Shown here in pieces: positions 43,994 through 54,981 of a stretch of DNA of 64,000 nt. Both the position numbers and the translations under genes were made by a program. The stretch's first letter is position 1. Each line of letters begins with the position of its first letter. The notes under the pieces were generated by a model, which searched no databases, was not told the origin of the DNA, and saw only the letters and a program-made list of their open reading frames with translations. Source of the stretch: Aquisalimonas sp. 2447 (GTDB taxonomy: Bacteria > Pseudomonadota > Gammaproteobacteria > Nitrococcales > Aquisalimonadaceae); contig NZ_CP050695.1 in NCBI RefSeq assembly GCF_012044895.1, positions 960,501-1,024,500 of the forward strand. The letters are read 5' to 3'.

Positions 43994-44065
43994 CACCGTC
44001 CTTCAGCGTGTAACTGCTGGCCCCGTCGTGGACACTGCCGGGTCGCATGGGCGTAGTATGAGCGC

Positions 44066-44722
44066 ATGAAAAAACTGGATATCGATATCGTCTCCGATGT
44101 GGCCTGCCCCTGGTGCGCCATTGGCTACAAGCGCCTGGAACAGGCCATGGCGGAGCTGGACGGAGAGATCGCGCTCTCCCTGCGCTGGCGACCGTTCCAG
44201 CTGAATCCTGAGATGCCGCCGGAAGGCGAGCCCATTCTCGAGCACCTCACCCGCAAATACGGGCGTAGCGCCCAGGAGATGGAGGCGGCGCAGCAACAGA
44301 TCGTGGACGCCGCGCACGAGCTGGGGCTGAACTTCGCCGGAGCCCACCAGCGGCGCGCTCATAACACCTTCGATGCCCACCGTCTGCTGGCGTGGGCCGG
44401 ACAGCACGACCGGCAGACCGAGCTCAGCCTTGCCCTGTTCGAGGCGTACTTCGGCCATGCCCTGAACCCGTCGGATCCCGCTGTGCTTCGGCAAGCGGCG
44501 GAGCAGGCCGGTTTGCCACGGGACGAGGCCGCGAGGGTGCTTGCCGACGGCGATTATGACGAGGAGGTACGCCGGGAGGAGGACTACTACAAGCGAGCCG
44601 GCATATCCGGCGTTCCGGGATTCGTCATCCAGGGGCAGTACCTGGTGTCCGGAGCGCAGGAGCCGGCGGTACTCGTGGGCGCCCTGCGCGAGATCGTCGG
44701 GGAGCGGGGCGCTCACGCCTGA
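44066..44722 (+). CDS. DsbA-family oxidoreductase (FrnE-like)
   Basis: A 218-aa cytosolic thioredoxin-fold protein with DsbA helical insertion. The active site CPWC lies in DIVSDVACPWCAIGYKRLEQ (about 7-26); RWRPFQLNPEMPPEG follows, and SGVPGFVIQGQYLVSGAQEP (about 178-197) holds the cis-proline. There is no signal peptide, so it belongs to the FrnE group of cytoplasmic disulfide enzymes rather than periplasmic DsbA. FrnE-like proteins are tied to oxidative stress in other bacteria. Confidence 0.92.
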   Translation: MKKLDIDIVSDVACPWCAIGYKRLEQAMAELDGEIALSLRWRPFQLNPEMPPEGEPILEHLTRKYGRSAQEMEAAQQQIVDAAHELGLNFAGAHQRRAHNTFDAHRLLAWAGQHDRQTELSLALFEAYFGHALNPSDPAVLRQAAEQAGLPRDEAARVLADGDYDEEVRREEDYYKRAGISGVPGFVIQGQYLVSGAQEPAVLVGALREIVGERGAHA

Positions 44723-44885
44723 GTTCCAGTGGTTCGTGTTCTGTAACTCTCCGGAATCGTTCAGTGTTCCCTGATCGGTGAGCTATACTGATCCAGGGAC
44801 TGCCTTCCTGTGCGGGCGGGCCCAGAGTCAGTATCCGTCAACCAACGGCAACCAGGGTCGGTTGATGACGGCCCGGGAGGTCACA

Positions 44886-45101
44886 ATGGTGAAAGCAGTC
44901 ACCGCTGTCTATCCCACCGTTGGCGCCGCCGAGAATGTCTTCGATGAACTCGTCGCCGACGGTTTCGAGCAGGAAAAGCTTTTTCTTGATCGGGACCACA
45001 TGCAGGTCAAGGTTATGATCCCGGAAGCCAGCTATCGGGAGGTGGAGGAAGTGCTTGGGCGCCACGGACCCAGCGACCTTTGGTCCACGCAGGTGCAATA
45101 G
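44886..45101 (+). CDS. Small conserved-looking hypothetical protein
   Basis: A 71-aa soluble protein, beginning MVKAVTAVYPTVGAAENVFD and containing FLDRDHMQVKVMIPEASYRE. The alternating pattern suggests an alpha/beta fold similar to small proteins that flank stress genes, but I do not recognise a family. The ATG at 44886 is chosen for GGGAGGT upstream; a longer frame from 44778 looks non-coding. TATACT at about 44780 could be a -10 element for it. An 8-bp inverted repeat (GATGCATCC/GGATGCATG) follows the stop. Confidence 0.6.
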   Translation: MVKAVTAVYPTVGAAENVFDELVADGFEQEKLFLDRDHMQVKVMIPEASYREVEEVLGRHGPSDLWSTQVQ

Positions 45102-45174
45102 ATGCATCCTGGATGCATGCTTGTACAGTCCCGATGCATTAGTTTGTGCATGGTTTCACAGATCCATTTCCTTT

Positions 45175-45235
45175 GACCCCGGACACTGACCGACACGCGA
45201 CGTCAACGTACGCGCGTCGGTCAGTGTCCGGGGTC
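45175..45235. repeat. Perfect 20-bp inverted repeat with 21-base loop
   Basis: Arms 45175-45194 and 45216-45235 are exact reverse complements; each begins or ends with GACCCCGG. A further four pairs inside the loop are possible after one mismatch. There is no T-run on either side, so a simple intrinsic terminator is unlikely. It may be a solitary mobile-repeat unit or a large RNA hairpin in the leader of the MHYT gene. Confidence 0.8.
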
Positions 45236-45327
45236 GTCCTGTCACCCCCTCAGGCCGCTTTCGGTTTTCCTGCAGACGTGTTCCTGGGGCCCAGTGGCGC
45301 CGCAGGCGGTTCGATTGGAGGTGGTGC

Positions 45328-46074
45328 ATGTCGGAAATGCTGTCCGAGTTTCATCTGGGGTTGGTGGCCCTGTCTTATGGGCTGTCGATGCTCGGTGCGC
45401 TCACGGGACTGCTGGTCTCGCGCAACATCCCGACCGAGGCGGGAGGGATCCGCATCGGCTGGTTGCTGCTTTCTGCGGTGGTGCTTGGCTTTTTCGCTGT
45501 ATGGTCCATGCACTTCGTTGGCATGGTGGCGTATCAGCCGGGCATTGCCATTACTTACGATACCCTGATCACGGTGCTGTCCGTGGTGCCGCCGGTGATC
45601 GCCTTCGCCGTCGGTCTCTGGGTGGCCTATACCTGGGCGCAATCGAAGATCGCCCTCGGGATTGCCGGTGCGGGCATGGGGCTCGGGATCGCCGGCATGC
45701 ACTACCTGGGCATGGCTGGCATGCGTATGGCCGCCGACATGCACATGGCCCAGGGGCCGCTGGTGGCATCGGTGATGATCGGCATGGTGGCCTCGGCGGC
45801 GGCGCTGTACTTCATCCGGGATACCCGGGGTGCCCTGCGGTATCTGAGCGCGCCAATCATGGGGCTGGCGGTGTGTGCCCTGCACTACACCGGCATGTAC
45901 GGCGTCACCCTGGCGCCGAACGAGGCGACGGTCCGCTACTTCGAGGGCGCCGTGACAGGGCCGCAGATGGTGATGTTGATCATTGCCTCGGCCACCGCGT
46001 TGACCGTTGTCTCCCTGGGGCTCGCCTGGTGGGCAGACGAGCGACGCACACAGGCACTGATACGGACGGGCTGA
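45328..46074 (+). CDS. MHYT domain integral membrane sensor-like protein
   Basis: A 248-aa protein with seven membrane helices and the repeated MHYT motifs: SMHFVGMVAY (about 60-69), GMHYLGMAGM and a later LHYTGMYGV. The methionines and histidines at helix ends are thought to bind copper and to sense a gas or redox signal. Here the domain stands alone, without a GGDEF, EAL or kinase output. GGAGGTGG lies upstream of the ATG. A good terminator follows. Confidence 0.9.
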   Translation: MSEMLSEFHLGLVALSYGLSMLGALTGLLVSRNIPTEAGGIRIGWLLLSAVVLGFFAVWSMHFVGMVAYQPGIAITYDTLITVLSVVPPVIAFAVGLWVAYTWAQSKIALGIAGAGMGLGIAGMHYLGMAGMRMAADMHMAQGPLVASVMIGMVASAAALYFIRDTRGALRYLSAPIMGLAVCALHYTGMYGVTLAPNEATVRYFEGAVTGPQMVMLIIASATALTVVSLGLAWWADERRTQALIRTG

Positions 46075-46092
46075 GCTGCCATCGAGGCACGG

Positions 46093-46119
46093 CCGCCACC
46101 CGCTGAGGGCGGCGGTTTT
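46093..46119 (+). terminator. Intrinsic terminator after the MHYT gene
   Basis: CCGCCACCC, loop GCTGA, GGGCGGCGG and TTTT. Eight of nine positions pair, with one A/C mismatch. It is located 19 bases after the stop codon. Confidence 0.65.
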
Positions 46120-46121
46120 GC

Positions 46122-46151
46122 TTGACCGCACGGTGACTTGAGGTGTATCTT
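46122..46151 (+). promoter_or_regulatory. Sigma-70-like promoter for the rimP-nusA-infB operon
   Basis: TTGACC (46122-46127), an 18-base spacer and TATCTT (46146-46151). It is the only good promoter found in the 312-bp gap before rimP, and it places both terminators in the transcript leader. Confidence 0.55.
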
Positions 46152-46233
46152 CCCGGCCTCGAAACGTCGCGGATCGACGGGTATGAGGCCCGCTCGCGGC
46201 TCGAGCGACGTTACCTCGGTAAAGACAAACTTT

Positions 46234-46258
46234 AAGGGGCCGGCATCGGCCTTTTTTT
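46234..46258 (+). terminator. First leader terminator of the nusA operon
   Basis: GGCCG-GCAT-CGGCC followed by seven T; flanking AAGG can pair with the T-run to lengthen the stem. It lies about 80 bases after the likely start of transcription and about 130 bases before rimP. Confidence 0.7.
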
Positions 46259-46346
46259 GTCGGCGGGGCGCCTGCCGTGTTCCGGGGGCGGAGTACGCAA
46301 CCCAGCGGGTGGTGCGCGAACGTTGGCACCGCTCGCTGAGAGACGG

Positions 46347-46373
46347 ATGGGCCTCGGGGCCCATTTTTTATTT
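46347..46373 (+). terminator. Second leader terminator, 13 bases before rimP
   Basis: ATGGGCC, tetraloop TCGG, GGCCCAT and TTTTTTATTT form a strong intrinsic terminator ending 13 bases before the rimP ATG. With the first hairpin it would block transcription of the operon unless antiterminated. Confidence 0.75.
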
Positions 46374-46386
46374 GTATGGACGGAAC

Positions 46387-46842
46387 ATGGACGGAATCCA
46401 CGACAAGCTGACGGCCATGGCCGAGCCCGCGGTGACGTCCCTGGGGTATGAACTGGTGGGTTTGGAGTACCGGCCCAACAAGAGCGAAGGTCTACTGCGG
46501 ATTTACATTGATTCCGCCGCCGGTGTCACGCTGGAAGATTGCGAGCTCGTGTCCCACCAGATCAGTGGTCTGCTGGATGTGGAAGATCCGATTCAGGGCG
46601 CCTATCGGCTTGAGATTTCCTCGCCGGGGCTGGATCGGCCGCTGTTCAAGGCCGCGGATTTCGAGCGCTTCGCCGGTGTCGAAGCAAGAATAAGGCTGAC
46701 CGGCCTGTGGGACGGGCGGCGTAAGTTTCGGGGCATCCTGCGCGGCGTGCAGGATGGCCATGTACTGATCGAGGAAGAGGGTGCCGAGTACGCGGTGCCG
46801 CTCGACCGTATCGACAGGGCAAATCTGGTTCCGGATGTCTGA
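46387..46842 (+). CDS. rimP: RimP, ribosome maturation factor
   Basis: A 151-aa 30S maturation factor. It has the N-terminal domain LGYELVGLEYRPNKSEGLLR with IYIDSAAGVTLEDCELVSHQ, the YRLEISSPGLDRPLFKAADF block (about 75-94) and the C-terminal SH3-like domain. It starts the canonical rimP-nusA-infB operon. The ATG at 46387 lies directly after a strong terminator; only GGACGGA stands where a ribosome site would be. Confidence 0.94.
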   Translation: MDGIHDKLTAMAEPAVTSLGYELVGLEYRPNKSEGLLRIYIDSAAGVTLEDCELVSHQISGLLDVEDPIQGAYRLEISSPGLDRPLFKAADFERFAGVEARIRLTGLWDGRRKFRGILRGVQDGHVLIEEEGAEYAVPLDRIDRANLVPDV

Positions 46843-46887
46843 CAACCCGGCGGGCGGATGCCGTCCGCCGGGCGTGGAGTCGCAAGC

Positions 46888-48390
46888 ATGAGCAAAGAGG
46901 TTCTGCTGGTCGTTGAGGCCATGTCCAACGAGAAGGGCGTCGATCGCGACGTCATTGTCGAAGCCGTTGAGGCGGCCCTGGCCTCCGCCACGAAGAAGCG
47001 CCATCCCGGCGAGATCGACGTGCGTGTGGACGTGGATCGCCGCTCGGGCGAGTACAGCACCTTCCGCCGCTGGCAGGTGGTGGAGGACGATGCCGAAGTG
47101 GAGTATCCGGACCAGGTGATTCGCCTGTCCGAAGCGCAGCAGCGGGATCCCTCGCTGCAGGTGGGCGACTTCGTCGAGGAACCCATGGAATCGGTGGCCT
47201 TCGGGCGCATCGCCGCGCAAACGGCCAAGCAGGTCATCGTGCAGAAGGTCCGCGAGGCTGAGCGGGCCAAGGTGGTGGAGGCCTACCAGGACCGGGTCGG
47301 CGAGTTGCTCACCGGCGTGGTCAAGAAGGCCGAGCGCGGCAATGTGATCATGGATCTGGGCAGTAATGCCGAGGCGTTGATCCCCCGCGAGGAGATGATC
47401 CCGCGAGAAGCTTTCCGTGCCGGCGACCGCGTGCGTGGTTACCTCAAGGAGGTGCGCCCGGATGCCCGCGGTCCGCAGTTGTTCGTCTCGCGCACTGCGC
47501 CGCAGTTCCTCATCGAGCTCTTCGAGTTGGAGGTGCCGGAAGTCGGGCAGGAGCTGATCGACATCCTCGGCGCCGCCCGCGACCCGGGCCTGCGCGCCAA
47601 GATCGCGGTGCGCTCCAACGACCCGCGCATCGATCCGGTGGGCGCCTGCGTCGGCATGCGCGGCTCGCGGGTCCAGGCGGTGTCCAACGAACTCTCCGGC
47701 GAGCGTATCGACATCATCCTCTGGGACGAGAATCCCGCGCAGTTCGTGATCAACGCCATGGCGCCGGCGGAAGTTCAGTCCATCGTCGTGGATGAGGACT
47801 CCGGCAGCATGGACGTGGCCGTGGCGGATGACCAGCTCTCCCAGGCCATCGGTCGCGGCGGTCAGAACGTGCGCCTGGCCAGTGAACTCACTGGCTGGGA
47901 GCTCAACGTCATGACCAGCGAGGACGCCCAGGCCAAGAGCCAGGAAGAGGCGCAAAAGGTGCTGGACACGTTTATCGAGACCCTCGGTGTGGATGAAGAG
48001 GTGGCCGGTATCCTGGTGCAGGAGGGTTTCTCCAGCATCGAGGAGGTGGCCTACGTGCCCGCCTCGGAAATGCTGGAAATGGAGGAATTCGACGAGGATA
48101 TCGTCGAGGAACTGCGCTCCAGGGCCCGCGATGCTCTGCTGACCCAGATGATCGCGTCCGGGAGCGACGGCAGCAGCGAACCCAGCGATGACCTGCTGAC
48201 CATGGAGGGCATGGACGACGACCTGGCGCGGCAGCTTGCCGGAGCCGGTGTGGCCACCATGGAGGAACTGGCGGAACAGGCGGTGGATGACGTGGTCGAT
48301 GCCACCGGTATAGATGCCGAGCGCGCGGCGGCACTCATCATGAAGGCTCGCGAACCGTGGTTCGCCGAGCAGGAGCAGAAGGAATCCTGA
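46888..48390 (+). CDS. nusA: NusA, transcription elongation/antitermination factor
   Basis: A 500-aa NusA. The N-terminal RNA polymerase-binding domain opens with [20 protein letters not shown], then an S1 domain ([20 protein letters not shown]), KH1/KH2 ([40 protein letters not shown]) and two acidic C-terminal repeats of the gammaproteobacterial type ([40 protein letters not shown]). The ATG at 46888 is the family start. NusA is known to control its own operon in E. coli, consistent with the terminators in the leader here. Confidence 0.96.
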
Positions 48391-48475
48391 TCCGTGGTGT
48401 GGGCGCCAGCAGCGCCCTGCGCGGGGAGCGGCCGCAGGCCGTCGTGATCGATGACCAGGATTCGGGGAGAAACGC

Positions 48476-51151
48476 ATGTCGGAAGTGACAGTCAAGCAAT
48501 TTGCGGAAACGGTCGGTACACCGGTGGAGCGGCTGCTGTCGCAGCTCAGCGAGGCAGGTGTCGAGGTGACCGATGCGGAGTCCGTGCTCACGGATGACGA
48601 CAAGGCGGCCCTGCTGACCTATCTGCAAAAATCCCGCGGCGGCGGCGAACCGGAGGAGTCCGGTCCACGCAAGGTGACGCTGCGCCGCAAGAGTACCAGT
48701 CAGATCAAGCTTCCGACCGGCGGTGGCGGTGCGCGTGGCGCCCGTGGCAGTGCCGGTTCGCGGACCGTGAACGTGGAAGTGCGCAAGAAACGCACCTACG
48801 TCAAGCGCGAGGATATCGAAGCCCAGCGTGAGCGCCTCGAGGCGGAGCAGCGCGAGGCCGAGGAGGCGCGTCAAGCTGAAGAGGAGCGCGCGCAGCGCGA
48901 AGCCGAGGAGCAGGCCGTAGCTGCGACGCAGAAGCCGACCGTTGAGGAAACCGCTGAGGAAACAGTGGCGCCTGCATCCACGGCGGCCGAAGAGATGACC
49001 ACCGGCGAAGCAACTGAAGCCGGCGCTGAGGCAGCAGAGCCGGAATCGGCTGGCGCAGCTCCCGAACAGCAGGGCGAGGATGCCGAAGCGGCGCCCGCGG
49101 GAGAAGCTCCCGCCGATCCTGCGCCCAAGGAGGAGCCGCCGGTGGCCGATCCCGCGACCCTGGAAGCCGAGTCCACAAGCTCAGCCAAGCGCAAGAAGGC
49201 CAAGGCCAAGGAGCGCACCCGGGACGATGACGAGGACAAGGGGCGCAAGGGCAAGGGGCGCAAGGGCCGCGAGGGGCGTGACGAGTTGCATGTGTCCCCG
49301 GGGCGCTCCGCCGGCAAGCGTGGCAAGCGCAAGGAGCGTGGCAGCGGAGCCGCCAGCTCGTTGCAACACGGTTTCGAGAAGCCCACCGCACCGGTGGTGC
49401 GCGAGGTGGAAATCCCGGAGTCCATCACCGTCGGTGAACTGGCCCAGCGCATGAGTGTCAAGGCGCCGGTGCTTATCAAGGAGATGATGAAGCAGGGCGT
49501 GATGGCCACCATCAACCAGGCGGTGGATCAGGAAACCGCCGTGCTGCTGGTGGAAGAACTGGGCCACAAGCCCCGCATCGTCAACGAGTACGCCCTGGAG
49601 GAAGAGGTGGTCAGCGAGGCTGCCGAGCCCGAGGGCGAGAAGCGGCCACGGCCGCCGGTGGTCACCATCATGGGCCACGTGGACCATGGCAAGACCTCGG
49701 TGCTGGACTTCATCCGTCGCGCCAAGGTGGCCGATTCCGAGGCAGGCGGGATTACTCAGCACATCGGTGCCTATCACGCCACCACGGAACGCGGCACCGT
49801 GACCTTTCTGGATACCCCGGGGCACCAGGCATTCACCGCCATGCGCGCCCGTGGCGCTCAGCTCACCGATGTGGTGGTGCTGGTGGTGGCCGCCGACGAC
49901 GGGGTCATGCCGCAGACCGAGGAGGCGATCAAGCACGCACGCGAGGCTGGCGTCCCCATCGTTGTCGCAGTGAACAAGATGGACAAGGCGGATGCGGATC
50001 CGGACCGGGTCAAGCAGGAACTCTCCAAGTACGAGGTCATCTCCGAGGAGTGGGGTGGCGATACCCAGTTCGTCCACGTCTCTGCCAAAACCGGTGAGGG
50101 CCTGGAAGAACTTCTGGAAGCCATTATCCTGCAGGCCGAGTTGCTGGAGTTGCAGGCGGTGGTGGATTGCGCAGCCACCGGCATCGTGGTCGAGTCCAGC
50201 CTGGACAAGGGCCGCGGCCCGGTGGCCACGGTACTGGTCCAGAACGGCGAACTGCACAAGGGGGACGTCATTCTCTCGGGAGTGGAGTATGGCCGCGTGC
50301 GCGCCATGCTCGACGAGAACGGCCGCCAGGTGGACAAGGCCGGACCGTCCATTCCGGTGGTGGTGCTGGGGCTGTCCGGCCTGCCCAACTCCGGCGATGA
50401 TGTCATGGTGCTGAAAGACGAGCGCAAGGCCCGGGAAGTGGCCGAAATGCGCCAGGAGCGTCAGCGCGAGAAGCGGCTTCAGCAGCAGAAGGCCGCGCGC
50501 ATGGACGAGCTCTTCAGCCAGATGAAGTCCGACGAAGTCAATCAGGTCAACATCCTGCTGAAGGCGGACGTGCAGGGCAGCGCCGAAGCGCTGAGCCAGT
50601 CGCTGACCGATCTCTCCAACGACGAGGTCAAGGTCCACGTGATCCAGACCGGCGTTGGCGGCATCAACGAATCCGACGTGAACCTGGCCATCGCCTCCAG
50701 TGCCATTCTGATCGGCTTCAACGTCCGCGCCGACGCAGCGGCGCGCAAGCTGATCCGTGAACACGAAGTGGATGTGCACTACTACAGCGTCATCTACGAG
50801 GCCATCGACGAGGTCAAGAAGGCCATCAGCGGCATGCTTGAGCCGGAGGTCAAGGAAGAGATTATCGGTCTTGCCGCGGTGCAGGACGTGTTCAAATCCT
50901 CCAAGCTGGGGGCCATTGCCGGCTGCCTTGTGGAGGAAGGCGTGGTGCGTCGCCGCTGCCCGATCCGCGTGCTGCGGGACAACGTGGTGATCTACGAAGG
51001 TCAGCTGGAGTCGTTGCGCCGCTACAAGGACGACGTCAGCGAAGTCCGCTCCGGCACCGAATGTGGTATCGGGGTGAAGAACTACAACGACGTCAAGGTG
51101 GGCGACCAGATCGAGTGCTTCGAGCGCTACGAGGTGGCTCGCTCGCTGTGA
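48476..51151 (+). CDS. infB: Translation initiation factor IF-2
   Basis: An 891-aa IF-2 with N-terminal IF2_N motif ([20 protein letters not shown]), a long charged low-complexity region (about 110-290, Ala/Glu then Lys/Arg-rich), a second IF2_N-like segment, and the GTPase core: G1 GHVDHGKTS (about 399-407), [15 protein letters not shown] and SAKTGEG. Domains II-IV follow to [12 protein letters not shown]. It positions initiator tRNA on the 30S subunit. The acidic, alanine-rich linker is common in halophilic relatives. Confidence 0.97.
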
Positions 51152-51167
51152 GGCGGACGGGATAGAC

Positions 51168-51545
51168 ATGGCGAAGGAAACTCCCCGTACCCGGCGTGTT
51201 GCAGAGCAGCTCCAGCGAGAGCTGGCGGAAACCATCCGCGATGAAATCCGGGATCCCCGCGTGGGCTCGGTGACCGTCTCCGGCGTCCAGGTTGGACGAG
51301 ACCTGGCGCACGCGAAGGTGTACATGACCGTGCTGGGCGCCGATGCCGCCGCCAGTGAGGAGGCGGCATCGGTGCTGAACAATGCCGCGGGTTTCCTGCG
51401 CCGGGAGCTGGCGCGCAGGGTGCGGCTGCGGACCGTTCCAGCCATGAGGTTCATCCGCGACCCGTCCTTTGATCGCGGCGCCCATCTGACCAATCTCATC
51501 GATCGCGCGGTGGACGAAGACGCCGAGCGTGGCAACAACGAGTGA
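51168..51545 (+). CDS. rbfA: RbfA, 30S ribosome-binding factor
   Basis: A 125-aa KH-type protein. Family blocks are TRRVAEQLQRELAETIRDEI, DPRVGSVTVSGVQVGRDLAH (about 27-46), VYMTVLGAD and RTVPAMRFIRDPSFDRG. It helps 16S rRNA processing and cold adaptation. It begins 16 bases after infB and is followed by truB. Confidence 0.95.
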   Translation: MAKETPRTRRVAEQLQRELAETIRDEIRDPRVGSVTVSGVQVGRDLAHAKVYMTVLGADAAASEEAASVLNNAAGFLRRELARRVRLRTVPAMRFIRDPSFDRGAHLTNLIDRAVDEDAERGNNE

Positions 51546-51557
51546 CACCGGACACCC

Positions 51558-52469
51558 GTGGCAGCACGACATCAGCGACGCAAGGTGAACGGCATTCTGC
51601 TGCTGGACAAGCCCGCCGGCGGCACGTCCAACAAGGTGCTGCAACGCGTGAAGTGGCTGTTCAGCGCCCGCAAGGCCGGGCATACCGGCAGCCTGGACCC
51701 CCTGGCCACCGGTCTCCTGCCGCTGTGTTTCGGTGAGGCCACCAAGATTTCCGGTTTCCTGCTGGATGCGGACAAGCACTACCGCGTGCGCTGCCGGCTC
51801 GGGCAGACCACCAACACCGCGGATGCCGAGGGCGAACTCCTGCGTGAGCGCCCGGTGCCGGCACTGGACGAAGCCACTGTCGGAGACGTGCTGCAGCGTT
51901 TTCTGGGTGAGCAGGAACAGGTACCGCCCATGTACTCGGCGGTGAAGCATCACGGCGAGCGCCTCTACCGCATCGCCCGTCGCGGTGAAGAGGTCGAGCG
52001 CAAGGCCCGTCGGATCCGGGTTCGGGCCCTGGCGCTGGTCGAGCTCGGACAGGCAGAGCTCACCCTGGACGTACACTGCTCCAAGGGCACCTATGTGCGC
52101 ACGCTGGCAGAGGAGATCGGCGAGGCTCTGGGGTGCGGTGCCCATGTGACGGTGCTGCGCCGTACTGGCCTCGGCCCCTTCACCGGCCAGCCAATGGTGA
52201 CCATGGAACAGGTCGAGGCCGCCGCAGAACAGGGCTTCGGTGCGCTGGACGAACTGCTGCTGCCATCTGAAACCGGGCTGGTAGACTGGCCCAGGGTCAC
52301 TCTGGACGCCGACAGTGCCCACTTTCTGCGTCTCGGCCAGGCGGTGTTCGTGCCCCGGGCGCCGGACGCGGAGTGGCTGCGGCTGTTCGGACCGGACGGT
52401 TTTCTGGGTATGGGCGTGATGCTGGATGACGGCCGGGTGGCGCCGCGGCGGCTCATGGCCGTAAATTAG
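51558..52469 (+). CDS. truB: TruB, tRNA pseudouridine-55 synthase
   Basis: A 303-aa pseudouridine synthase with a GTG start at 51558 ([20 protein letters not shown]). The catalytic aspartate is in [20 protein letters not shown] (about 38-57), and the [20 protein letters not shown] and [20 protein letters not shown] motifs follow. The C-terminal PUA-like domain is intact. It makes the T-loop pseudouridine in tRNAs. Confidence 0.95.
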
Positions 52470-52498
52470 GAAAATTCCGGGAGTCAGGCGTGTTTAGC

Positions 52499-52527
52499 TT
52501 GTCGCCCCGCAGGTGCGCCGCTACAAT
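52499..52527 (+). promoter_or_regulatory. Sigma-70 promoter for rpsO
   Basis: TTGTCG (52499-52504), a 17-base spacer, and TACAAT (52522-52527). The -10 lies in the loop of an inverted repeat (GCCGCTA/TAGCGGC), so a secondary structure spans the likely start region. It gives rpsO-pnp expression independent of the nusA operon. Confidence 0.7.
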
Positions 52528-52570
52528 AGCGGCCCTTCAGGAAAGTGGACGGAATACCAGGAGTCATTTG

Positions 52571-52840
52571 ATGTCGCTGACGGCCGAAAAGAAATCGGAG
52601 ATCGTGAACGAGCACAAGCGCTCGGAAGGGGATACCGGTTCCCCGGAAGTCCAGATCGCGCTGCTTACTCACCGCATCGCCCACCTCACCCAGCACTTCG
52701 CGGATCACAAGCAGGATCACCACTCCCGCCGGGGTCTGCTGAAGCTGGTGAACCAGCGTCGCAAGCTGCTCGACTATCTGAATCGTAAGGATCGCGAGCG
52801 CTATCAGGCGATCGTGGCCAAGCTCGGTCTGCGCAAGTAA
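52571..52840 (+). CDS. rpsO: 30S ribosomal protein S15
   Basis: An 89-aa S15, starting [20 protein letters not shown] with the typical [20 protein letters not shown] and [20 protein letters not shown] (rRNA-binding helices). The ATG at 52571 is supported by AGGAGT and the exact family start. S15 organises the central 16S domain. It is followed by pnp after 41 bases that hold a GGCGCCGGCGCC palindrome. Confidence 0.97.
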
Positions 52841-52881
52841 GGCGCCGGCGCCATTTTCCCGCAGGCAGAGGATCAGTCGCT

Positions 52882-54981
52882 GTGGAATCAGTAAAGAAGT
52901 CTTTCCAGTACGGCGAACACACGGTCTCCCTTGAAACCGGTGCCATTGCCCGGCAGGCCACTGGCGCGGTGCTGGTGAATATGGCCGATACCGTGGTCCT
53001 GGTGACCGTGGTGAGCAAGAACGAGTCCGGCGCGCAGCGGGACTTCCTGCCGCTCACGGTGAACTACCAGGAACGCACCTACGCCGCCGGCAAGATCCCG
53101 GGCGGTTTCTTCAAGCGCGAGGGGCGCCCCTCCGAGAAGGAAACGCTTACCTGCCGCCTGATCGATCGGCCGATCCGTCCACTCTTTCCCGAAGGGTTCT
53201 ACAACGAGGTGCAGGTGATCGCCACGGTGATCTCCATGAACCCGGACGTGGACCCGGACATTCCGGCCCTGATCGGCACCTCTGCGGCCCTGGCCATCTC
53301 CGGGATTCCCTTCGACGGCCCGATCGGCGCGGCACGCGTCGGCTACAAGGATGGCGAATACCTGCTTAACCCCGGCTTCTCCAGCCTGGAAGAGTCGGAC
53401 CTGGACCTCGTGGTCGCCGGCACCAAGGATGCCGTGCTGATGGTCGAGTCCGAAGCCAGTGAGCTGCCCGAGAAGGTCATGCTTGACGCCGTACTGTTCG
53501 GGCACGAGCAGATGCAGAAGGCCATCAGCTGCATCAACGAGCTGGCCGCCGAAGCCGGCAAACCGCGCTGGGACTGGCAGCCGGCACCCAAGGACGAAAC
53601 GCTGGCCGAGAAGGTCAGGACGCAGTTCGAGGCCCCGTTGCGCGAAGCCTACAGCGTCGCCGAGAAGACGGAGCGCAATGAAAAGGTCAACGCCCTGCGG
53701 GACCAGGCCGTCGACGCCTTTGCCTCGGAAGACGAGGAAGGTGGCCCGACGAAGCAGGACGTGGTCGGTGCCTTCAAGGGCATCGAGAAGAAGATCGTGC
53801 GCGGGCGCATCATCGAAGGACAGCCCCGCATCGATGGTCGAGACAACCAGACGGTGCGGTCCATCGACATCGAGGTGGGGACGCTGCCGCGCACCCACGG
53901 CTCGTCCATCTTCACCCGTGGCGAAACCCAGGCCGTGGTGGTCACCACCCTGGGCACCGGTCGGGACGCGCAGATCGTCGATGCCATCGAAGGCGAGCGC
54001 AAAGAGCCCTTCATGCTGCACTACAACTTCCCGCCTTACTGCGTTGGCGAGACCGGCTTCATGGGTGGGCCCAAGCGCCGCGAAATCGGTCACGGCAAGT
54101 TGGCCAAGCGGGGCGTGCAGGCGGTGATGCCGTCCGCCGAAGAGTGCCCCTACGTCATTCGCGTGGTGTCCGAGATCACCGAGTCCAACGGCTCCAGTTC
54201 CATGGCCACCGTGTGTGGTACCAGCCTGTCGCTGATGGATGCCGGTGTGCCGGTGAAAGCGCCGGTGGCAGGTATTGCCATGGGCCTGATCAAGGAAGGC
54301 GATGACTTCGCAGTGCTCTCGGACATCCTTGGTGACGAGGATCACCTGGGCGACATGGATTTCAAGGTGGCCGGCACCGACAATGGTGTCACTGCCTTGC
54401 AGATGGACATCAAGATCAACGGCATCACCCGCGAGATCATGGAGAAGGCCCTGGAGCAGGCGAACAGCGGCCGGATGCACATCCTGGGCGAGATGAAAAA
54501 GGTGATCGGCGAGCCGCGTTCGGACATGTCCGAATATGCGCCACGTCTGCTCACCATGCGTATCGATCCCGAGCGCATCCGGGACGTCATCGGCAAGGGC
54601 GGCTCCACCATCCGCCAGCTCACCGAGGAGACCGGTGCCAACATCGACATCTCCGACGAGGGCGTGGTGACCATTGCCTCGGTGGACAAGGCCGCCGGCG
54701 AGGAGGCCAAGCGGCGCGTCGAGGAACTGACTTCCGACATCGAAGTGGGGAAGGTCTACGAAGGTCGTGTGGTCAAACTCATGGATTTCGGCGCCTTCGT
54801 CAGCATCCTGCCGGGCAAGGACGGCCTGGTGCACATCTCCCAGATCTCCAACGAGCGCGTGACCCAGGTGTCCGACGAGCTCAGCGAGGGGGATGTGGTC
54901 AAGGTCAAGGTGCTGGAAGTCGATCGCCAGGGGCGTGTGCGCTTGAGCATGAAAGCGGTGGACGAAGCCGACGCCGGCTGA
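52882..54981 (+). CDS. pnp: Polynucleotide phosphorylase
   Basis: A 699-aa exoribonuclease with GTG start. Two RNase PH domains are seen: the first with [20 protein letters not shown] and the second with the active-site segments [40 protein letters not shown] and [23 protein letters not shown] domain ([20 protein letters not shown]) and S1 domain ([20 protein letters not shown]) close the protein. It degrades RNA from the 3' end with phosphate and is part of the degradosome. Confidence 0.97.

Follow-up and report, generated by a model that had tools for sequence, protein, structure and literature searches.

A putative attenuator in the rimP-nusA-infB leader of Aquisalimonas, with a first terminator probably derived from tRNA-fMet

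Results

The rimP leader and its operon

The window, by which we mean the whole 64 kb stretch of DNA analysed here, belongs to a 3.97 Mb single-contig genome; positions 45601-47000 were read letter by letter. Among named sequences, its RimP matches best those of two Aquisalimonas MAGs (78 and 74% identity). The features of the locus are as follows.

45328-46074, upstream neighbour of the unit, an MHYT-domain gene (MHYT by Pfam)
46092..46119, + strand, terminator of the upstream gene (-18.7 kcal/mol; 4 of 200 shuffles equally good), setting the MHYT-domain gene apart from the rimP unit
46122..46151, + strand, promoter TTGACC-18-TATCTT with a GC-rich stretch 3' of the -10, called from scan and conservation
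46157..46218, + strand, 5' element of the leader, sequence-conserved within the genus, with a fold no better than shuffles
46234..46258, + strand, T1, intrinsic terminator (hairpin 46234-46255), corresponding to the terminator found behind tRNA-fMet in relatives
46303..46340, + strand, H, hairpin between T1 and T2 (z -5.3; 0 of 300 shuffles equally good), with counterparts in relatives
46345..46373, + strand, T2, rimP-leader terminator (hairpin 46345-46366), GGGCC-loop-GGCCC followed by an interrupted U-tract
46387..46842, + strand, rimP, which heads the operon (RimP_N and RimP C-terminal domains by Pfam)
46888..48390, + strand, nusA, second gene and candidate feedback regulator (Pfam NusA_N, S1, KH_5, HHH_5)
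48476..51151, + strand, infB (IF2), third gene, named from its ORF translation by reading and gene order

The original prediction for this DNA had a promoter at 46122 followed by terminators at 46234 and 46347, and all three elements are present. The T1 hairpin (stem GGCCG...CGGCC) folds at -12.4 kcal/mol, a value reached by none of 200 shuffles, and the T2 hairpin (GGGCC-TCGG-GGCCC) at -13.8 kcal/mol, reached by two of 200. A simple terminator scan (8 found versus 5.6 expected) listed T2 and missed T1, probably because the A-U pairs of T1 itself use up its U-run; a second, structural finder, whose thresholds were our own choice, listed both. The predicted gap of 13 bases between the second terminator and the rimP ATG (46387) is correct when counted from the end of the U-rich tail of T2 at 46373.

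Promoter and 5' element

By itself the promoter scan argues only weakly for a promoter at 46122-46151, since its rate is near chance (2 promoter-like matches in 44000-54000 versus 1.4 in shuffles); conservation is the better evidence. When leader sites were scored with textbook weights and the top three per genome listed, this site ranked first in all four congeneric genomes that have the locus. These four genomes align poorly as far as about 46110 and well from 46115 on: mean pairwise identity is 0.17-0.52 in 30-column windows ending by 46115, and 0.85-0.89 in those from 46115 to 46175. Transcription would start near 46158. By eye, the genes upstream of the leader vary, with G003 and G004 apparently sharing one and G000 and G001 having others.

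The conserved sequence continues for about 60 nt 3' of the promoter (46157-46218) in the four genomes, and this element had no match away from the rimP leader locus in 59 genomes at E below 0.001. Its single-sequence folding resembles that of shuffles in all four (93, 213, 40 and 99 of 300 equally good). Two candidate readings of the element were set aside: a conserved fold, proposed by a four-sequence consensus and unsupported by the single-sequence shuffles, and a leader peptide from an ATG noticed by eye at 46183, dropped because that ATG is absent from the other three genomes.

A promoter downstream of T2, which the prediction had named as a finding that would count against it, is not among the three best sites in the window's genome, and given this and the 13 bases that separate the T2 tail from the ATG, a promoter between T2 and rimP appears unlikely. 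Weak promoter-like sites overlapping the U-run of T2 were listed for G001 and G004.

T2 is conserved before rimP

We compared rimP upstream regions in two sets. Of 59 genomes searched, 52 gave a RimP match, and 51 of these, the window's own among them, form the first set (G056 was left out); the second comprises 77 usable loci of 80 named ones (L068, L100 and L121 were unusable). Three genomes are common to both sets, L052, L053 and L057 being taken as duplicates of first-set genomes. In the 110 nt before rimP, 47 of the 51 genomes, the own genome among them, and 75 of the 77 named loci carry a terminator, where shuffles lead us to expect 1.2 and 0.75. Control counts for genomes and named loci were 1 and 1 on the reverse strand, and 0 and 0 inside the rimP ORF. 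The finder returned no T2 at four genome loci (L039, L045, L051, L007) and two named loci (L062, L093). Two genomes, G028 (L014) and G031 (L016), have a single hairpin between tRNA-fMet and rimP, T1 and T2 being apparently reduced to one.

The T2 stem changes letters on both sides. At the fourth pair from the loop, 61 of 122 hairpins have G-C and 53 have A-T; at the sixth, 66 have A-T and 41 have T-A. As Methylococcales make up most of the named set, these paired changes may represent few events. A strict GGGC expression for T2 was tried and replaced by the structural finder: it matched only 16 of 78 named loci, with some matches not T2, because Methylococcales mostly carry GAGCC...GGCTC. The pattern GGGCCN1-6GGCCCDTTTTTT has 44 matches in the 59 genomes, of which 36 are directly before rimP (in 36 of the 52 genomes with RimP) and 8 elsewhere; the reversed-pattern control gave one match, and in the whole 3.97 Mb genome of the window the pattern occurs exactly once. 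Within the order the letters of the T2 stem are conserved besides their pairing, and conservation beyond pairing suggests recognition.

T1 and the tRNA-fMet gene

The prediction had also stated that there is no tRNA gene to explain the terminators. This is true of the window, in which ARAGORN found no tRNA and T1 does not directly follow a tRNA-fMet gene, but the likely origin of T1 is nonetheless a tRNA-fMet terminator: in 32 of the 51 genomes a terminator at the T1 position lies within 40 nt behind tRNA-fMet. A tRNA-fMet core is present within 450 nt upstream of rimP in 40 of the 51 loci, and ARAGORN called tRNA-Met in 41 of the 51 fetched loci; four genomes with a tRNA nearby gave no T1 by the finder (G028, G031, G039, G057). 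Many of the 32 counterparts have letters near GGCCGC-TT-GCGGCC; those of genus g10, G054 and G055 are different. A sequence search with the T1 region gave 23 matches in 22 of the 59 genomes, 22 of them at rimP; the sole exception (G020, contig C87) lies beside a second tRNA-fMet copy. None of the 22 genomes is in the window's genus, so that T1 is recognised there by place and form.

Four genomes of the genus have the locus (G000, G001, G003, G004), and in all four tRNA-fMet is absent before the rimP leader; the fifth, G002, has no RimP match. T1 is kept in three of the four and lost in G001, the closest by rimP (82%). The window's own genome has one full-length tRNA-fMet copy (C1:661049-661125), about 346 kb from rimP; in G004 and G003 the gene lies on the same contig as T2, 5.7 and 7.9 kb upstream of it. 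In these two (L148 and L149, respectively) several genes separate it from the rimP leader, apparently with a molybdate-type transporter in G004 (by eye). As judged by eye, the bases before tRNA-fMet in G000, G001, G002 and G004, not in G003, encode the end of the small membrane protein that precedes the gene in relatives, which suggests that the tRNA has retained the gene upstream of it. Another hairpin follows the relocated tRNA-fMet in G000, G001 and G002.

Separation is also seen in genus g4, where the tRNA of G007 and G012 has its own terminator and a promoter-like site lies between tRNA and T1; in G013 the tRNA is further off, and the contig of G010 ends too soon. We counted as uncoupled the 13 genomes in which the T1 place does not adjoin a tRNA (G000, G001, G003, G004, G007, G010, G011, G012, G013, G015, G027, G029, G038), leaving out G053, which a contig end cuts, and G054, which belongs to the same class only and has a different hairpin. 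T1 is kept in nine of these and missing in four, G001 included. From these comparisons T1 is probably a tRNA terminator by origin, which is often, not always, kept. In genus g10 (L010, L011, L034) we noticed a TATAAT-type promoter-like site between T1 and T2, from which transcription would bypass T1 and not T2.

A third hairpin between the terminators

The counterparts of H in G001, G003 and G004 have z-scores of -3.4, -4.1 and -2.7 (2, 1 and 4 of 300 shuffles equally good), these values and that of the window being inflated because the borders of H were picked after the sequences had been inspected. Their lower stem is alike; the upper stem has other letters yet is paired. For genus g9, an alignment in register was possible for eight of twelve sequences, in which several H pairs are changed on both sides; the pairs were taken from the individual folds, a procedure that favours pairing. 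Taking the whole T1-T2 spacer instead, mean z is -1.9 in the 34 two-terminator genomes (z <= -2 in 17) and -1.3 in 64 named loci (z <= -2 in 18). The whole spacer is weak in G000, G003 and G004 (z -1.9, -1.2 and -0.8), where the signal is H alone. The support for H is stronger in g1, g9 and some others than over the set as a whole.

Comparison with known rimP leaders

T2 fits the rimP-leader attenuator described by Naville & Gautheret 2010 (PMC2965389), and the core idea has been in print since then; in that survey the rimP operon attenuator ranked first among those found. Here, as there, an intrinsic terminator with a U-tract lies just before rimP (4-130 nt in the published description), rimP is first in rimP-nusA-infB, and T2 carries the GGGc...gCCC stem motif, which is specific for rimP leaders to the extent of the match counts given above. 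Some Gammaproteobacteria also have a second upstream terminator in the published form, and no antiterminator is visible for the downstream one. The window differs from the published tandem form (2010, Fig. 2a) in that the upstream CCCg...cGGG motif is absent, the T1 stem being GGCCG...CGGCC, and in having H in addition; H is in neither the accessible 2010 description nor the structure line of Rfam RF01770.

RF01770, the gammaproteobacterial rimP leader that comprises E. coli T1 and T2, has the same gene and the same order T1-T2-rimP. The window nevertheless does not match it (cut-off 47 bits), whereas the E. coli leader reaches 102 bits, and the T1-T2 spacing of the window is larger. No Rfam family gave a credible match in the window at gathering or relaxed thresholds, and across the 59 genomes no RF01770 match was over the cut-off; weak matches at rimP loci numbered seven, all outside the window's genus.

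The E. coli metY-nusA-infB leader likewise has two terminators (t1, t2) upstream of rimP and nusA in the operon; the window's unit differs in being without tRNA-fMet, its full-length copy being the distant one. The prediction had contrasted the two leaders on the ground that the metY tRNA explains the terminators in E. coli. This contrast is incomplete, as the E. coli pair (that of RF01770) is itself in the rimP leader, with its first member about 120 nt downstream of metY. The rimP(ylxS)-nusA attenuators of B. subtilis and S. agalactiae likewise act by intrinsic termination ahead of the genes of an operon that contains nusA, and NusA feedback is reported for the former and suggested for the latter; in S. 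agalactiae, according to the part of the source available, there is one terminator, 31 nt behind the start, and the parts available for the two species mention no tRNA.

Discussion

We consider it likely that transcription of the operon is attenuated in its leader, in the manner published for rimP leaders and with NusA feedback, T2 being the core and T1 a former tRNA-fMet terminator. RNA polymerase starting near 46158 would meet T1 and then T2; a share of transcripts would end at these points as leader RNAs of about 100 and 215 nt, and those that read through would yield RimP, NusA and IF2. Any transcript that starts at the operon's promoter has both terminators ahead of it and can reach rimP only by readthrough, as the prediction had proposed for expression of the operon. 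NusA, encoded inside the controlled operon as in NusA-autoregulated attenuators, promotes termination at U-tract hairpins, so that NusA made from the operon would lower readthrough and steady its own level. T2 would be the core attenuator element; T1 would have begun as the terminator of a tRNA-fMet gene in front of rimP and, when that gene and rimP were separated in the genus, have been left in place either as an additional brake or as a relic. Speaking against this reading are the absence of T1 from G001 and three more of the 13 uncoupled genomes, the loci at which the finder gave no T2 or a single hairpin is left, and the failure of RF01770 to recognise the window's leader.

Control of readthrough by NusA is put forward as the best mechanism by precedent. 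In the available text, Naville & Gautheret 2010 (PMC2965389) favour a protein, probably NusA, as the regulator at T2 and also consider RimP. In partly accessible sources, E. coli is reported to have two terminators upstream of rimP and to show increased transcripts when termination by NusA is reduced, S. agalactiae to have short and long rimP leader transcripts, with NusA feedback suggested, and B. subtilis, per a review, to autoregulate NusA by attenuation. Attenuation could also be real with another signal read at T2, either a different protein, namely RimP or a ribosomal one, or the overall speed of elongation. The conservation of T2 stem letters within the order beyond what a hairpin needs, and the place given to RimP in the 2010 account, speak for such a signal; as NusA feedback on the same operon is reported in two of these species and suggested in the third, we consider it unlikely.

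A reading without any regulation would make T1 a leftover tRNA terminator and T2 a block on upstream readthrough. The 32 of 51 genomes with a T1 counterpart behind tRNA-fMet and the loss of T1 in 4 of the 13 uncoupled genomes are what mere insulators would give, but both terminators are downstream of the operon's own conserved promoter, T2 is kept in several g10 genomes where a promoter-like site sits between it and T1, and T1 persists in 9 of the 13; we regard this as very improbable. Lower still we place an RNA switch with an antiterminator, or a source of a trans-acting small RNA. The prediction had suggested that the 88-nt piece between the hairpins might be a separate small RNA. The piece does hold H, with its counterparts, and one paper, in the portion available, counts the rimP leader among ProQ-associated sRNAs derived from attenuators; still, the promoter scan gave no match between T1 and T2 in the window, and the third-best leader site (score 5.8 versus 11.1), whose -10 falls in the U-run of T1, is not convincing, so that the suggestion is unsupported. 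As to a switch, the 5' arm of T2 has 7-8 nt of complementarity to the 5' element in G000 and G001 (8 and 4 of 200 shuffles equally good), but complementarity is at chance in the other 35 of the 37 genomes, out of 51, that fit the search expression, which agrees with the lack of a visible downstream antiterminator noted by the 2010 authors, and the shuffle-like folding of the 5' element in all four genomes weighs against it too.

More tentatively than the NusA attenuator, and with more doubt than belief, we raise the reading that the leader is a three-hairpin device, T1-H-T2, in which H is a conserved working part and T1 a tRNA terminator co-opted for a second point of regulated termination, one that outlasted the separation from the tRNA. 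H might serve, for example, as a processing site or as a spacer that prevents mispairing of the GGCC-bearing arms of T1 and T2. It is in any case a testable addition to the described rimP leader; together with the tRNA origin of T1 in this order and its separation from the tRNA, it was not met in the open-access literature that we searched.

NusA and IF2 are essential, and the signal sensed in their operon's leader is proven at most in a few model species. On the side against NusA control, a partly accessible source reports for an E. coli rimP 5'UTR-ORF fusion decreased expression in a Rho mutant, its authors leaving the reasons open. The genomes with an uncoupled tRNA-fMet, in which T1 stayed, went or gained a promoter, offer natural experiments that set the job of tRNA terminator apart from that of attenuator. 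At one such locus (L035, G011) an apparent tRNA-fMet 3' end (CCCCGCTACCA) lies upstream of T1 with the rest absent, possibly a remnant of the tRNA.
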